DNA of 64,000 bases from Flavobacterium sp. Its GTDB lineage: Bacteria > Bacteroidota > Bacteroidia > Flavobacteriales > Flavobacteriaceae. The notes below the pieces were generated by a model. The model saw only the letters and a list, made by a program, of their open reading frames with translations, was not told where the DNA came from and ran no database searches. This document shows positions 31,160 to 55,584 of the stretch, piece after piece; position 1 is the stretch's first letter, and each line of letters starts with the position of its first letter. The position numbers were made by a program, and so were the translations under genes. Where the stretch lies: NCBI GenBank assembly GCA_026390995.1, contig JAPLEX010000012.1, positions 1 through 64,000 of the forward strand. Reading direction: 5' to 3'.

Positions 31160-31192
31160 AAGTTGTCGGTTCAAAAGATTTAAAGATTGAAA

Positions 31193-31495
31193 ATTGAATG
31201 ATTGAAAGATTTCGTCTTGAAGACACCGCTTTGTTCCGAAGTATCCAAATTCTCTGTCTGTTTTTTTTCTTTTTCTCGCAAAGACGCAATCCCGATAAAT
31301 CGGGACGCAAAGGTTTTTGGCGACTTGGCGAGAAACTAAAATCTTTTCATGTAGTTATAAAGAATTTACGTAGAAACGAATTTTATCTCTTTGTAGTAAC
31401 GGATTGCACACGAGCGAAGCGACTGCCGAAGGAAATCCGCGCTATCGGGTTAGATGATTGAAAGATTGAAGAATTGAATGATTGAAAGATTTCGT
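31193..31495. repeat. 23-nt perfect direct repeat (31193-31215 and 31473-31495) within a degenerate intergenic repeat region
   Basis: attgaatgattgaaagatttcgt present twice. Confidence 0.85.
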
Positions 31496-31599
31496 ATTAC
31501 AGCAACAGTTGTGCCCCGAAGTTTTGGTCCCGAAGTGTCGGGATTCAGATTGTCTCTCCTCTTTAAATCGCTCATCTAAAAATATTTGTGCATGTGGCG

Positions 31600-31731
31600 A
31601 AAAGCTAACAGCTGACAGCTAATAGCTCACAGCTGTTCTTAGTATACAACTGAATTTTGGAATTTGGAATTTCAAAAATTGGAATTTTTATAATTCGTGG
31701 CTAAAAGCTAACAGCTAACAGCTGACAGCTA
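31600..31731. repeat. Degenerate agctaacagctgacagct-type tandem repeat clusters
   Basis: agctaacagctgacagctaatagctcacagctg and agctaacagctaacagctgacagct. Confidence 0.75.
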
Positions 31732-38670: not shown

Positions 38671-39342
38671 TTAAATAACCCCTTTGTTTTTGGCTTCTTG
38701 CACCAATTCGGAATGAGTAGCTTGAGGGATGTCAAGTACCGCTTTTAAATTTGTTAATCGTTTTTCTATTACTGCATCTGCCAGAGGCACAAATTGAGCT
38801 AGATCGGCGGTGGGTACTCCTTTTGACAAATGAAACAACAATTGTTTGTCAAACACATCTACTTCATTAGAATCAAACGGAATTTGACTCACCAATTTCA
38901 CAACGGTTTGGCTGTAGTAATTTTCGTCTTTTAGAATTTTATCAAAAGCCAATAACAATTCATCAAAGGTCAAATCGTTTTTGATAACCAGCCCATTGGG
39001 GTTGATGTTTTTGATGATGGTGTTTATTTTGAGCATCTCCGAATGCATGGTGAGCAAAATGATTTTACAAGCCGGCAGGCGCTCTTTGACCAACAAGGCC
39101 AAATCTTCTCCAGAGCTGATCCCTTTTTCTTCGTAGGTGGGCATGCTCAAATCAAAAAAGGCAATGTCAAATTGTGCATTATCTTCGTTGATAATAGCCT
39201 CATAGCCTGTTTTACAGTCTTTGGCTTGGGTGACAGTAAATTCGTATAACCCCTTGGTATTGTAGCCTTTAATCGCATTTTTATACGCCTCTATGATAAA
39301 AGGATGGTCGTCAACCATTAATACACGAACCAATTGTGCCAT
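38671..39342 (-). CDS. Response regulator (REC + divergent C-terminal HTH), RR1
   Basis: VLMVDDHPFIIEAYKNAI; AFFDLSMP; C-terminal LSKGVPTADLAQFVPLADAVIEKRLTNLKAVL. Confidence 0.85.
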   Translation of the reverse strand: MAQLVRVLMVDDHPFIIEAYKNAIKGYNTKGLYEFTVTQAKDCKTGYEAIINEDNAQFDIAFFDLSMPTYEEKGISSGEDLALLVKERLPACKIILLTMHSEMLKINTIIKNINPNGLVIKNDLTFDELLLAFDKILKDENYYSQTVVKLVSQIPFDSNEVDVFDKQLLFHLSKGVPTADLAQFVPLADAVIEKRLTNLKAVLDIPQATHSELVQEAKNKGVI

Positions 39343-39355
39343 AATTTTCTAGTTA

Positions 39356-41295
39356 TTAATCTTGATACGGAACAAACAATTTAAGGGTAGTTCCTATTCC
39401 TTTTTGCGATTCTAGTAAGACCGTTCCATTGCATAAGGCAGTGCGGCTGTAAATGTTTTGCAAACCTATTCCTTTTTTCTTTTTGTTTAACAAAAATCCT
39501 ACCCCATCGTCAAATATTTCCAATTTAATTCCGCCTTCTATGGCCAAAAAATTAATGATAATCGATTGAGCCCGCGCGTGTTTATTGGTGTTGTGGACCG
39601 CTTCTTGAACAATTCTATATAAGTGAATTTTAACCCCCCCGGTAAGTAGATCCCAATTTATATTGCTGTCAAATTCCAAGAAATTTCGAGTTTTAGTTGC
39701 TTCAAATTGATCCTCCATAAAGGCGCTAATCACCTTGACAAAACTCACCGATTTGGCAAATACTTCTTTGTTTAAATCGTGCGATATGTTACGAATTTCT
39801 TTCTCAACATCTTGAATACCGTCAATCAGGATTTTTGATTTTTGCACGTTTTCTGACGTGGGTTGATTGTGCAAAGAATCCAGGTTCATTCGGGTAGAAG
39901 CCAGCCGGTTGAGCACCCCATCATGCAGGTCTTTGGATATGCGTTCTTTTTCGTTGTTGCGCGCCGAATCAATTTTGTTTTGTTGAGCTAACAACAAGTT
40001 ATAAATTTCTTCGTTGGCTTTTTGTTGCACTTGCTGCAAGCGAAATTCTTTTTGCTTCAACAATTGTTTGCCTATTACAAATAGCAATAGAGCGATGATA
40101 AATATGGCCAAACAAACCCATACGACAATGAAATATTGCTCTTCGACTTCTTCTTTTTCTTTGGTTATTTCATCGGTTTCGAAGGCAATTTTGGCAAATT
40201 TATTGCGGGTTTGTCGCTCCATATTTTGCATGCTGTCCGACAAGGAAATATACTGGCTGCTGTATTTTAGGGCTTTTTCAGGATTAATTTTTATCAGTTT
40301 TTTCAAGCACTGGAAAAGTCTTTTACCGCGGTATAATAGTAAGAAAGGTAAAGGCGGTTGAAGTTTTTGCCCTGATCTATGTTAAATTGATTCCTTATAT
40401 TTTGAGCATATATTAATGAAACGTCTATTGAGTTTAGATTCCCTTGTTTCAATTTAGAAATACATTCGTTTTCAATTAATTTACAATATATATATGGATA
40501 AGATGTTTTTATGCCTTTCAAACAAATTCCTTTTTTATAATAATTTATTGCCTTTTTGAAGTTGCCAATCGAGTAATAATTATATCCAATATTATTATAA
40601 CATGTTGATAAATCTGAATTATCAAACTTATTTCTATTAGAAAATATGATTTTTTTTGCTTTAAAGTGATAAGAAAATGATTTTGAAAAATCATACAACT
40701 CATTTGAATTGACTCCTAAAAAAGAAAAAATTAAAAATTGATCTTCAATAAATTTATTTTGTTTTGCGATTTTGAGGGCTTCAATCAAGGAATTTTCACT
40801 TCCCAGATAATCATTTATAAAAAATTGAACCTGTGCTTTGTCTTGATATATTAAACATAATTGTTTATAATCATTTATTTTTTTAAATAACTTTTCGGCT
40901 TTTAAATAATAATAAAAAGCTGAATCATTATTGCTTTTGTTTTCAAAATAAATTCCATTATATCTTGTACAAAGACCTATTTGTCTAATGTCCTTAGAAA
41001 TTAATGCTCTTTGAAAAGCAACTTTATTTGATTTTTTGAAACCCTCTAATTCATTTAATACAATAAAATTATATGATAGCTTAATCAATCTATCTCTGTT
41101 AATTGAATCATTTTTTTGATCTAATAAAAGAGTATATAATTTTCGACTAATTAATATTCTTTTATTATAAGTGATACTTTTATTTGTTGCATTTTCTAAT
41201 AGAATATCTATTTTTTCTTGATCTACATCTCTTTTATTTTTGTTTACACATCCAAAAAATAAAATGAGTGTTATTCCTATCCAAATATACTTCAT
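39356..41295 (-). pseudogene. TPR lipoprotein-histidine kinase (HK1), apparently split by a small deletion and frameshift
   Basis: Two adjacent ORFs (40303-41295 TPR/lipoprotein; 39356-40306 TM + HisKA_3-type RISKDLHDGVLNRLASTRMNLDSL + HATPase) that align consecutively to the intact paralog at 42038-44071. Confidence 0.75.
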
Positions 41296-41375: not shown

Positions 41376-42038
41376 TTATATTAATCCGCGGTTGGTTGCT
41401 TCTCGAATAATGTCTTCGTCAGTACCTTTTACAATATTAAAAAAGTCTTTGATTTGGGCTTTTCGTTTGTCAACTGCACTAAGTGATATGCCTAAATGCG
41501 ACGGGATGTTCTTGGTTTTAATCCCTTTAGAAAGCAGTGAGACAATGCGGCGATCTATGGAATCTAACGCATCGTTTTGAACGGCCACTTCCTTGATGGC
41601 ATTTCGAACGGTTTGGCTGTAATAAACCTCCCCTTGCCGAACTCTATCCACGGCCAAAATAAACTCCTCCGATTTAAAATCACTTTTAATCATCAGGCCA
41701 TCCGGATTTACTTTTTTGACGATATTATACAATATAAATGCTTCCAAATGAGAAGTGGAAATCAATATTTTTGTCTGTGGGAAATGTTTTTGAATTAAAA
41801 AAGCCAGGTCTTCTCCCGATTCGATTCGTTGGGGCGTATAGGCGGGCAATCCAATATCCAAAACAACGAGATCATATACTTTGTTTGATTGAAAAAGCTT
41901 TTCATACCCCGATTCACTGCTGTAGGCCACGTACACTTCTAGCTGATCTTCGGTGTATTTTTCTTTCAAAATACTTTTATACCCCTCAATTATTGTAGGG
42001 TGATCGTCAATAAATAAAATTTGTAAGGCCCTTTCCAT
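41376..42038 (-). CDS. Response regulator (REC + LuxR-like C-terminal domain), RR2
   Basis: ILFIDDHPTIIEGYKSIL; LVVLDIGLPAY; LLSKGIKTKNIPSHLGISLSAVDKRKAQIKDFF. Confidence 0.87.
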   Translation of the reverse strand: MERALQILFIDDHPTIIEGYKSILKEKYTEDQLEVYVAYSSESGYEKLFQSNKVYDLVVLDIGLPAYTPQRIESGEDLAFLIQKHFPQTKILISTSHLEAFILYNIVKKVNPDGLMIKSDFKSEEFILAVDRVRQGEVYYSQTVRNAIKEVAVQNDALDSIDRRIVSLLSKGIKTKNIPSHLGISLSAVDKRKAQIKDFFNIVKGTDEDIIREATNRGLI

Positions 42039-44071
42039 TAGTGATCCGCTTTTTGTTCAAATAATGGCAATTTGATTTGGATGGTTGTTCCTGATCCTTT
42101 TTGAGAACTCACATCAAGTTGTCCGTTACATTCGGTAGTTCTTGAAATCATGTTTTGTAATCCAATTCCTTTTTTCTTGGATTTCACATCAAACCCAATT
42201 CCGTTATCGGCTACGCTAAAATAAATCCAATCTTCTTTTAATTCAAACAAAATGTCGATTTTTGACGCATTGGCATATTTGTTACAGTTTTGCAACGACT
42301 CTTGCAGCATGCGATACAAATTGATTTTCATGGTATTGGCAATTTGATCCCATTTTATTTTCTCGTCTATAGTGCACGTTACAACGGGACTAAATGCGTT
42401 TTTTTGTTCTTCGACCAAATTGTTTACAATGGCCACAAAATTATTAATCAACACATATTTCTCTCGGTTCAAATCATGGGAGATTTCCCGAATATCCTGC
42501 TCAATATTTTTGAGTTCATTGAGGTAGTTAAATCGATTGGCAATCGCTTCTTCGTCGGTAAAACGGTTTAAACTATCCAGATTTAACCGGGCGCCAAACA
42601 ACCTGCCCAACACCCCGTCATGCAACTCTTGTGCAATTCGTTTTTTCTCTTTTTCGCGGCTTTCTTCAATCGTGGCTTGCTGAGAAATCATCAAATTATA
42701 GATGTCCTCATTGGCTTTTTGTTGTTGTTGTTTTAATACCAATTCGCGATTTTTGGCTCGTTGTGTTCGAATCACAAACAACAACAAGCCTACAAACAAG
42801 GTGCCCACAAAAAAGTATAACAAGCTTCGATTTTGTTCGGCTAATTTGTCTTTTTCCAGTATTATTTCGTCGGTTTCAAACGCAATTCGCGCAAATTTAT
42901 CTTTTGATTTACGCTCTTCCAGTTGTATACTGTCGCTGATTTTGATGTACTCTTTGGAATATTTAGCTGAATTTATATGTTCAACTAGAGAAAGTTGTTT
43001 GAGAGATGTAAGTAAATCTTGAGGTATTTTAGTTTTTTTCGCAAGAAGAAGAGCTTCATTTGCTTGTTTTTGTGCTGCTAGAGTATCCATATTACTTAAA
43101 TAATACTCTGACAAATGCAACTTACTTAAAATTACTCTTGAGGTTAACTTTAAACTATCTCGTATTTGTAATGATTTGAAAAATAAATTAAGGCAGTTTG
43201 GATTATTTGATGTTTTGAATCTTGAATATGCGACATTATCTAATAGCGTTGCATATAGACTCGGCTTAAACTCTGGTGTTTTTTTATTTTGAAGGGCAAT
43301 TTCAAATTCAATAATTGCTTTATTATAATCCTCGTTATTTTGATAGCAGTTACCAATATTATTTCTTGATATTTCATTTAAGAAAAATTCTTTATTTAAT
43401 TCGTTTTTAATAGAAACATCTAAAGCTTTTCTGTGATACTCAATTGCTTTAATATAATTTTGTTTTCCAAAAGATGCTATGCCAAGATTAGTATATGAAT
43501 CGTACTGGCCTAAATAGTCATTAACAAGTCTAAAACTTTTAAGTGCTTTCGCAGCATAATATTCCGCGCCTAAAAAGTCATTAATATTTAATTGAATTGT
43601 AGATTTATTTAAATAAATACTTGGAAGAATTTTTGAGTTTAAATTATTATTTAATAGTCTTTCAGCTTTGGAATAAAAGTAAAAAGCACTATCTAAAATA
43701 TCATTGTTGTAACAACGTTCACCTGAATAAAAAAAACAAAGCGCAATAGTTGTAGTGTCTTTTGATTTAATTGAATTCTCAAGAAAGTAGTTATTAATGT
43801 CCTTTAAATTTTCCCAATCACTTTGCTCCAAATAAAATCTTTGCGCTTTTAGTAAATATGATTTATTCTTAAGAGAATAATTATTATTCTTTATTAGTTT
43901 AAAATATTTTTTGTAGTTATTGCTGACTCTATCATTAGTTAGAGTGTCGTTATCTATTTTGTTTTGTAAATTATCTATTATCTCTTTACTGACATTAGCT
44001 TTTTTTTCAGTCTGGTTTGTACAGCTAATTAAGAATGTAATTAAAGTAACTAATAAAACTTTCTTTTTCAA
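42038..44071 (-). CDS. TPR-containing lipoprotein sensor histidine kinase (HK2)
   Basis: Lipobox LISCTNQ; TPR-like helical pairs; TM LLYFFVGTLFVGLLLFVI; RIAQELHDGVLGRLFGARLNLDSL; NGIGFD...KGIGLQNM...GSGTTIQI. Confidence 0.88.
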   Translation of the reverse strand: MKKKVLLVTLITFLISCTNQTEKKANVSKEIIDNLQNKIDNDTLTNDRVSNNYKKYFKLIKNNNYSLKNKSYLLKAQRFYLEQSDWENLKDINNYFLENSIKSKDTTTIALCFFYSGERCYNNDILDSAFYFYSKAERLLNNNLNSKILPSIYLNKSTIQLNINDFLGAEYYAAKALKSFRLVNDYLGQYDSYTNLGIASFGKQNYIKAIEYHRKALDVSIKNELNKEFFLNEISRNNIGNCYQNNEDYNKAIIEFEIALQNKKTPEFKPSLYATLLDNVAYSRFKTSNNPNCLNLFFKSLQIRDSLKLTSRVILSKLHLSEYYLSNMDTLAAQKQANEALLLAKKTKIPQDLLTSLKQLSLVEHINSAKYSKEYIKISDSIQLEERKSKDKFARIAFETDEIILEKDKLAEQNRSLLYFFVGTLFVGLLLFVIRTQRAKNRELVLKQQQQKANEDIYNLMISQQATIEESREKEKKRIAQELHDGVLGRLFGARLNLDSLNRFTDEEAIANRFNYLNELKNIEQDIREISHDLNREKYVLINNFVAIVNNLVEEQKNAFSPVVTCTIDEKIKWDQIANTMKINLYRMLQESLQNCNKYANASKIDILFELKEDWIYFSVADNGIGFDVKSKKKGIGLQNMISRTTECNGQLDVSSQKGSGTTIQIKLPLFEQKADH

Positions 44072-44100: not shown

Positions 44101-44130
44101 ACAAAAAAAACCCGATAGATATCTATCGGG
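44101..44130 (-). terminator. Rho-independent terminator 3' of the repeat-peptide gene
   Basis: cccgatagatatctatcggg with T tract on the minus strand (plus strand acaaaaaaaa). Confidence 0.8.
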
Positions 44131-44159
44131 CAATATAAAAAAAATTTATTTTTTTATTA

Positions 44160-44435
44160 CTATAAATTACTTTCGATTTCAACAATTCTTCTGCTTCCGC
44201 GTGATTCTTGTCCACCTATGTCAGTAATTCTTCTGCTTCCGCGTGATTCTTGTCCACCTATTTCAGTAATTTCGGAGATTCTTCTACTTCCGCGTGATTC
44301 TTGTCCGCCTATTTCAGAAATGTCGGTGATTCTTCTACTTCCGCGTGATTCTTGTCCCCCAATCTCTGGACTGGTGAACGAGGTTAAGATCATCATCAAT
44401 GAAAACAATCCTAATGTTAATACTGTTTTTTTCAT
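44160..44435 (-). CDS. Small exported protein with four GGQESRGSRRI repeats
   Basis: 91 aa; signal peptide MKKTVLTLGLFSLMMILTSFTS; own terminator; four perfect 11-aa repeats. Confidence 0.8.
   Translation of the reverse strand: MKKTVLTLGLFSLMMILTSFTSPEIGGQESRGSRRITDISEIGGQESRGSRRISEITEIGGQESRGSRRITDIGGQESRGSRRIVEIESNL
44184..44360 (-). repeat. Four 33-nt in-frame repeats (44184-44216, 44226-44258, 44277-44309, 44328-44360)
   Basis: aattcttctgcttccgcgtgattcttgtccacc; copies 1 and 2 identical, copies 3 and 4 differ at about three positions, spaced 42/51/51 nt. Confidence 0.95.
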
Positions 44436-44608
44436 AATTTGAGACTTTTATTTTTGTGTGTTTTATTTCGTGTTTCATGTAAATCGTCAGTGATTCACGG
44501 TGTAAAACTAGATAGCATGTCTCTTGAAATCTACTGTTTTCGGGCGTTTATGGTAGATGGTGCCCGTTTGGTAGTGAATGATAGCCAAATCTGAGTAGAT
44601 GGCGTTTT

Positions 44609-45502
44609 TTAGATTTCTAAATAATTGCCATTGGTAATTGCGGCAATAATTCCGTCTATGTTTTCCTTATAGGACTTGGAAAACGGCAATTTGGTAGTGG
44701 TGTTTTTAATGTAGCATACCGAATTTCCGGTGTGAATGCGCGACACATAATCTACATTGACAATATAGCTGTTGTGTATGCGCACAAAAGGATTGGTAAG
44801 CACGCTCTCGAAGTGTTTGAGCGTTTTAAATGCGGTAATCATCTCTCCGGTATTCAAGTGAATGTCGGTAGAATTGTTGTCGGCTTGCAAATAACAAATG
44901 TCGCGGGCTTCTATAAAGCGGTAATCGCCGTAGGATTTCACGCAGATGATCAAGGGTTTTTCTTGGGCCAACGAAAGTCCAGGAATGGCTTCAATGATTT
45001 TGGCTGAGGCTGTATTTTGAGAATCCAATGACTCCGTTGCTGGAGGCGACGAAATAATCTCAGGTTCTACCACCTCTATCGCTGTGCGGGATGTTTTGGG
45101 TTGTGTAAAAAGCCGAGGATTATCAAACACAAACTTCTCGTACTTTAAAATTGTTTTTCTGAGCTCGTTTACATCTATGGGTTTTAGCAAATAATCTAAC
45201 ACCTCATACTTCATGGCTTCGTAGGCCAGGTTTTGAGTTTTGGTGATTACTATGATCTCTGGAACGATGCGCAAATACCGATGCAATTCGTTGATGAGTT
45301 GCAGCGACAAATTACTTTTTTTGTCTTCTGGAGCAATCTCTAAAAACACCAATTGAGGCGTGTGCTCTAAAATTACATTCACCGCTTCGGAATAATTGGT
45401 AGCCGAACCTAAAAAAACAAGCTGCTGAAAATGACTGGCGATAGCCATCACATTTTCAATACTTTCGGGCTGGTCGTCCACGATGATGAAAGTATGCTTC
45501 AT
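44609..45502 (-). CDS. LytTR-family regulator with atypical receiver domain
   Basis: REC-like FIIVDDQPESIENV...LVFLEIAPEDK...VITKT...LLKPI; LytTR YLQADNNSTDIHLNTGE...FVRIHNSYIVNVDYV. Confidence 0.88.
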   Translation of the reverse strand: MKHTFIIVDDQPESIENVMAIASHFQQLVFLGSATNYSEAVNVILEHTPQLVFLEIAPEDKKSNLSLQLINELHRYLRIVPEIIVITKTQNLAYEAMKYEVLDYLLKPIDVNELRKTILKYEKFVFDNPRLFTQPKTSRTAIEVVEPEIISSPPATESLDSQNTASAKIIEAIPGLSLAQEKPLIICVKSYGDYRFIEARDICYLQADNNSTDIHLNTGEMITAFKTLKHFESVLTNPFVRIHNSYIVNVDYVSRIHTGNSVCYIKNTTTKLPFSKSYKENIDGIIAAITNGNYLEI

Positions 45503-55119: not shown

Positions 55120-55564
55120 CAATAGCCATTAGGCAATAGGCATTAATGTACTTTATGTTTTACTCGATTCTATTTTAGTTATAAATGAATTTATCATTTT
55201 GCTTTCTTCAATAATTTGATTCATTAAGTTGGCAAATAATTTTTCATTCTTAATCAATTTTAGTTTTTCGGCAAGAATCAACTGTGTTTCTAATTCAAAT
55301 AACGAGCCCCTTGCAATAGTTATAAAATAAATATAACTCTGAGTTGAATTTCTACCGTACCCTTCCGCAATATTTGAAGGAATTGACAATGCAGCTCTTT
55401 TTAACTGACTGGTCAGGGCATATCGCTCTTCTTTTGGAAACTCTTCAGTTAACTCATACACATTAACGACAATGTTTATTCCTTTTTGCCAAATTAATAG
55501 ATCTTTATATGACTTAATTTCAATCATCTACTATTGCCTTTTACCTATTGCCTAATGGCTATTG
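55120..55564. repeat. Perfect 21-bp inverted repeat (55120-55140 / 55544-55564) flanking a four-helix-bundle ORF
   Basis: caatagccattaggcaatagg and its exact reverse complement cctattgcctaatggctattg. Confidence 0.92.
55153..55527 (-). CDS. Four helix bundle protein (S23 / 23S rRNA-intervening-sequence-associated family)
   Basis: SYKDLLIWQKGINIVVNVYELTEEFPKEERYALTSQLKRAALSIPSNIAEGYGR signature. Confidence 0.93.
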   Translation of the reverse strand: MIEIKSYKDLLIWQKGINIVVNVYELTEEFPKEERYALTSQLKRAALSIPSNIAEGYGRNSTQSYIYFITIARGSLFELETQLILAEKLKLIKNEKLFANLMNQIIEESKMINSFITKIESSKT

Positions 55565-55584
55565 CCTAATGCCTAACGCCTATT

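Follow-up and report, generated by a model that had tools for sequence, protein, structure and literature searches.

The 91-aa open reading frame (ORF) examined here, from Flavobacterium sp., is best explained as a precursor carrying several copies of a short signalling peptide (~12-14 aa), the ligand of the TPR histidine kinase encoded beside it, and we hold this reading with reasonable, though far from complete, confidence. The precursor-kinase pair is probably pheromone-like, with an extracytoplasmic TPR domain in the kinase. The elements read from the sequence are a conserved leader, identical units under purifying selection, a fixed locus, and a conserved putative operator, promoter and terminator; export, processing, binding and output are what we infer. 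The ORF lies in a stretch of 64,000 nucleotides (contig JAPLEX010000012.1, positions 1 to 64,000; hereafter the window), where it comprises the following features:

44160..44435, minus strand: repeat-peptide precursor, 91 aa (homologs and pN/pS)
44370..44435, minus strand: N-terminal hydrophobic leader, residues 1-22 (homolog alignments; helix 3-19 in the AlphaFold2 model)
44184..44363, minus strand: four IGGQESRGSRRI units with short linkers TDISE / SEITE / TD (DNA repeats and translation)

A first-pass annotation, made from the letters alone, had described an exported 91-aa ORF with this leader and these repeats, and we found it at 44160-44435 on the minus strand; the four DNA copies, with start-to-start spacings of 42, 51 and 51 nt, could likewise be reproduced. 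The units, described there as four identical 11-mers, are indeed identical, but the identical stretch (IGGQESRGSRRI) is 12 aa long rather than 11. Pairwise differences among the four 36-nt units of the window precursor amount to 16 synonymous and 0 nonsynonymous, and E or D immediately precedes every IGGQESRGSRRI copy. The leader, KK followed by a hydrophobic stretch, is judged from its sequence to be Sec type I-like, lacks a lipobox Cys, and is the best-conserved part of the precursor in alignments across species. In the AlphaFold2 model the leader is helical and the remainder disordered (pLDDT 45). The concern that the opposite-strand ORF (44218-44442, plus strand) might be the real gene was checked, and this candidate was rejected: an antisense ATG ORF of at least 60 aa is present in just 17 of 114 homologous loci, the median length being 20 aa. 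One antisense frame is likewise repeat-identical, because third positions coincide, and the strand call therefore rests on leader conservation and on the locus. Chance is ruled out, as leader, repeats and locus are all found again in over 100 non-identical loci. Elsewhere in the window, 7-8 nt tandem repeats (AAAGATTG, GCTAACA, CCTAATG) occur at 31174-31731 and 55531-55584; these are unrelated to the precursor locus.

In an initial search of 100 relatives, 36 genomes yielded a precursor match; almost all of them belong to the same genus. A profile built from 15 precursor sequences matched 287 of 400 Flavobacterium genomes at E<=0.1, some of these matches being weak, and outside the genus it gave borderline matches only, within the order. 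From a scan of GTDB genomes 80 precursor loci were retained, all belonging to Flavobacterium or to unclassified Flavobacteriaceae/Bacteroidetes MAGs, and the named relatives that carry the precursor are Flavobacterium. No relatives of the precursor were found among phages, plasmids and viral contigs (IMG/VR), searches of Pfam and NCBIfam gave no credible match to it, and an Rfam search of 36-50 kb of the window gave no match. One homolog matched NF038205 ('LOFI repeat') at 26.7 bits, against a cut-off of 25, over a stretch of 12 residues; this was taken as chance.

Most homologs consist of a common leader (MKKxILTIGLFSLVMVLTSFTTPE) and 2-6 units, the sequence of which varies by species, for example LVGGGSAGGNKKVD x4, IIGGNATGGNMKLD x6, IGGRSSQGEFA x6 and NIDGGSRQIKTD x4. 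Within genes, 55 of 93 arrays are fully identical in protein, and comparison of the units over these 93 arrays gave a pS of 0.387 and a pN of 0.022 (ratio 0.056), with third codon positions taking 1885 of the 2237 unit differences. This low pN/pS indicates that unit identity is kept by selection on the peptide and not just by recent duplication, so that purifying selection acts on the identical units within each gene. The repeat is not clear (single or degenerate unit) in 21 of 114 homologs, and single-copy forms with one C-terminal unit are found at four loci (L078, L175, L177 and L180).

The precursor is flanked in the window by the following genes:

44609..45502, minus strand: LytTR-type regulator, in whose receiver Glu replaces the phospho-acceptor Asp (domain search, homolog alignment)
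42038..44071, minus strand: sensor kinase with lipobox-type N-terminus, TPR sensor, TM, HisKA_3 and HATPase_c, and a TTG start
41376..42038, minus strand: NarL/LuxR-type response regulator, acceptor Asp invariant
39356..41295, minus strand: second TPR kinase, split near 40306 and followed by a regulator at 38671-39342

As the annotation had stated, the TPR sensor kinase is the next gene after the precursor on the same strand (42038-44071). The order LytTR regulator, precursor, TPR kinase, NarL-type regulator characterises 114 non-identical loci. The LytTR regulator lies directly upstream of the precursor in 112 of the 114, the remaining two carrying another TPR kinase there, and the NarL-type regulator is present in 109. 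The proposed check on homologs, of copy number and of kinase proximity, showed that the former varies (2-6) and that the kinase adjoins in 112 of 112 loci with enough sequence. The His of the kinase and the Asp of the NarL-type regulator never vary (106/106), and a lipobox-like N-terminus occurs in 94 of 106 kinases. The LytTR receiver has Glu (FLEI) at the acceptor position in 104 of 106 homologs and is thus a conserved pseudo-receiver; the LytTR protein is therefore probably phosphorylation-independent. The second TPR kinase, which has no precursor of its own, shows a ~22-codon deletion and a frameshift when compared with L066, the closest relative, where the gene is intact; it is either a pseudogene or an assembly error.

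The regular presence of the kinase bears on a further rival, which takes in the alternatives named in the annotation: the repeats may serve a structural role, make up an adhesin or amyloid, or act as a sacrificial substrate for proteases. Such a role would suit a repetitive, exported protein with low-complexity linkers, but it accords poorly with the predicted disorder, the shortness and low copy number (2-6), the existence of single-copy homologs and a kinase that always adjoins; neither the amyloid/surface nor the sacrificial-substrate version found any support, and we consider this rival very improbable.

Candidate signals for the expression of the precursor gene were recognised on both of its sides:

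44544..44601, minus strand: three direct repeats of 16 bp each with an exact 21-bp period (CATCTACTCAGATTTG, CATTCACTACCAAACG, CATCTACCATAAACGC), putative LytTR operator
44502..44510, minus strand: promoter -7-like element TAGTTTTAC, with TAnnTTT unchanged throughout the alignment
44102..44131, minus strand: intrinsic terminator (CCCGATAGATATCTATCGGG and a T run) between precursor and kinase

The gap between LytTR gene and precursor, which holds the three direct repeats and the promoter, is of near-constant length (median 176 nt). Conservation of the direct repeats and of TAnnTTT is seen over 108 loci, and both loci without an adjacent LytTR gene retain recognisable direct repeats. The flavobacterial -7 consensus is TAnnTTTG (PMC9723704), and many LytTR targets consist of 9-bp direct repeats with 12 bp between them, often starting with ACC (PMC6193735). 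Spacing at the precursor locus has this LytTR-type 21-bp period upstream of the promoter, the operator role being putative. The hairpin and T run between precursor and kinase are also conserved, and most species additionally possess a promoter-like TATTTTTG. In the window's own genome the joint box1-box2 pattern has a single occurrence, and a genome-wide search there for a second operator site found none, so that no regulon was identified.

How the units might be released was judged from the same family comparison. The annotation had proposed the dibasic RR as a processing site, a suggestion that had to be abandoned: RR sits inside the unit and is unconserved, the same position reading MK, VK, KT or SQ in homologous units, and alpha-factor-like dibasic processing is therefore unlikely. 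What recurs instead is an acidic residue at the unit ends. Of 114 precursor proteins, 101 have D or E as their C-terminal residue, and D and E replace each other at unit ends, which read TD/SE/TD/VE in the window and VE/VE/FE/IE in its relative L066. Cleavage at these acidic boundaries may free the units; no candidate processing protease was identified.

The N-terminal ~390 residues of the kinase are confidently predicted to form a TPR superhelix (AlphaFold2; pLDDT 88.5, pTM 0.86), and this sensor domain has Pfam TPR matches. The top Foldseek matches among solved structures are the eukaryotic LGN/Pins TPRs, which bind linear peptides, and further matches include the Bacillus pheromone receptors RapI, Rap-phi3T and NprR. 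Since the TPR is a generic fold, this structural likeness shows capability and not ligand identity. Over 85 loci, unit distance correlated with TPR-domain distance when kinase, regulator and LytTR distances were given (partial r 0.34, p 0.001, the Mantel p-values being liberal for related species), and showed no positive correlation with the kinase domain or the NarL-type regulator. LytTR distance correlates with unit distance too (partial r 0.31), so that part of the covariation is due to linkage or shared ancestry. In a profile along the kinase, partial correlations are close to zero for residues 1-40 and 81-120, reach their maximum over residues 161-280 (0.29, 0.35, 0.28) and are about zero in the catalytic domain. 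Linkage as the sole cause is partly disfavoured, the kinase N-terminus nearest to the precursor having an r of 0.06 and the peak being central; such a profile is not what mere linkage with the precursor gene would produce.

This covariation also has to be set against the idea that the units act as secreted antagonists, either bacteriocin-like or as RiPP cores, whose production is all that the kinase and regulators control. RiPPs likewise show multicopy cores and diversity between species, and one homolog gave a weak Pfam match to a bacteriocin leader (E 0.0087). However, the units covary with the sensor domain, and the neighbours seen to recur are the genes for LytTR, kinase and regulator, with no enzyme for maturation, no transporter and no immunity gene among them. 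As regards a multi-core RiPP (graspetide-like), the interval profiled systematically, from the LytTR to the NarL-type regulator gene, showed no maturation enzyme. We give this idea only a slim chance.

The position just upstream of the kinase, here termed the slot, is also occupied where the repeats are absent. For kinases gathered across the order by kinase similarity alone, 33 loci were fetched, and in these other Flavobacteriaceae 27 of 33 kinases have just upstream a small ORF (34-134 aa) predicted to be exported, versus 0 of 71 other genes to which the same scoring was applied. In Flavobacterium loci an exported small ORF precedes 57 of 85 kinases versus 7 of 468 other genes, but these loci were picked via the precursor, so that only the former comparison is unbiased; a crude signal predictor underlies the slot enrichment. 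Distant TPR kinases outside the order, elsewhere in the class, have no exported small ORF upstream, and the slot therefore appears specific to this kinase clade. Several repeat-negative Flavobacterium have a lipoprotein-like peptide of 53-62 aa with a variable C-terminal end in the slot (DNGDVELPKPPTATGK, DNGNRDLPKPPQRV), another (L205) has a single-unit form, LKTGGTLNNAGAKKRD, and in some of the repeat-negative loci the upstream repeats look similar by eye. Some genomes (e.g. G182, G510, G528, G613) encode a pair of kinases from this clade, and a separate peptide gene accompanies each.

The slot peptides of other genera are unrelated to the Flavobacterium repeats. Some are themselves repetitive (ATDDDEVGEPQPSNGEV x5 in L220, CDDCAHDSDDRETLA x6 in L222 and SPDGDDIPDIET x3 in L227); repeat amplification arose independently in these three loci, and the slot predates the repeats. 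The exported protein of L222 (3030-3401), with its six CDDCAHDSDDRETLA repeats, is Cys/His/Asp-rich and could bind metal. In L234 and L235, three small lipoprotein genes that share a C-terminus (VETDPVIIPKKD or VETDPIIIPKKD) stand in tandem upstream of the kinase, which is preceded by a fourth gene ending in PILIIKND; this is amplification at the level of genes and not within them. In L232, L243 and L251, peptides of 35-48 aa without signal peptide, with IKFPGG or similar and a Gly/Asp-rich tail, precede TPR kinases, resembling double-glycine leader peptides.

In other genera, 21 of 27 slot peptides are lipoproteins, which would be membrane-anchored and are not obviously diffusible. This favours the main rival to a pheromone, namely that the repeat protein does not leave the envelope (periplasm or membrane) and acts there on the kinase as ligand or inhibitor. 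The system would then work cell-autonomously, as with CpxP-like accessory proteins, to sense the state of the envelope or of proteases, and the repeats would provide avidity. The lipobox-type N-terminus of the kinase likewise places its TPR domain within the envelope, and a Sec leader by itself delivers a protein no further than the periplasm. Yet the units diverge strongly among species and are identical within genes, as specificity signals would be, and an avidity domain leaves the single-copy C-terminal forms (L078, L175, L177, L180) unexplained. We regard envelope confinement as unlikely, if worth serious attention.

As to the multicopy signal precursor, the annotation's view of an exported protein tied to a TPR kinase is well supported by selection on the identical units, near-invariant synteny and the slot across genera, and has lost dibasic processing. 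In the mechanism that we propose, the LytTR protein would drive precursor transcription via the three 21-bp-spaced repeats, the precursor would be exported by Sec, and cleavage at acidic boundaries would release the units. The freed peptide would then bind outside the cytoplasm to the TPR superhelix, on its concave side, and the kinase would phosphorylate the NarL-type regulator. As the peptide would be species-specific, self/kin (density) sensing is its likely use.

Several known systems share parts of this arrangement. In RRNPP quorum-sensing systems (Rap-Phr, NprR-NprX, PlcR-PapR) a small Sec-exported precursor is also encoded beside a TPR receptor, and the predicted TPR fold of the kinase matches RapI, Rap-phi3T and NprR. 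However, RRNPP receptors are cytosolic, usually with HTH or cytosolic targets, and read re-imported peptides, whereas the Flavobacterium TPR domain precedes a TM and HisKA_3/HATPase and has a lipobox-like N-terminus, the precursor is usually multicopy and the host is Gram-negative. Similarly, the Gram-positive peptide-kinase quorum-sensing systems Agr, Com and Sil encode a peptide precursor at the same locus as a histidine kinase and a LytTR regulator. By contrast, the Flavobacterium sensor is a TPR and not a polytopic HPK10, its kinase is of HisKA_3 type with a NarL-type partner, no dedicated peptide exporter/processor gene was seen in the locus, and, unlike in Agr/Com, the LytTR receiver is without acceptor Asp (Glu in 104/106). 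Yeast alpha-factor shares a signal peptide followed by tandem units that are uniform within a gene and variable between species, but the Flavobacterium precursor has no conserved dibasic (KR) spacer and its units end in acidic residues. Finally, LytTR Regulatory Systems (PMC6193735) likewise have a LytTR regulator and, ahead of a promoter, direct repeats of 21-bp period (9 bp + 12 bp); unlike there, the Flavobacterium partner is not their defining membrane protein, the repeats are three, and the target appears to be the precursor gene. All components thus have analogues (RRNPP, Agr/Com, multicopy precursors), yet each of these fails on one defining feature.

A literature search, with subscription papers mostly outside its scope, returned no prior description of the precursor family or system. 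To our knowledge no peptide-pheromone system has been described in Bacteroidota, and that search returned none either. The chances are about even that we are dealing with a peptide pheromone system of Flavobacteriaceae at large, with extracytoplasmic TPR domains on the kinases as receptors, a small exported precursor for each kinase, and repeatedly evolving arrays whose unit is the species signal. In most Flavobacterium species a small exported repeat precursor is always found beside the same kinase, which suggests an undescribed form of Gram-negative peptide signalling. If this is true, Flavobacterium would possess a species-specific peptide code with the receptor next door in most genomes, and ligand, receptor and output would be directly testable in genetically tractable strains. 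The precursor-kinase loci form a natural data set for the coevolution of ligand and receptor and for the origin of multicopy precursors.
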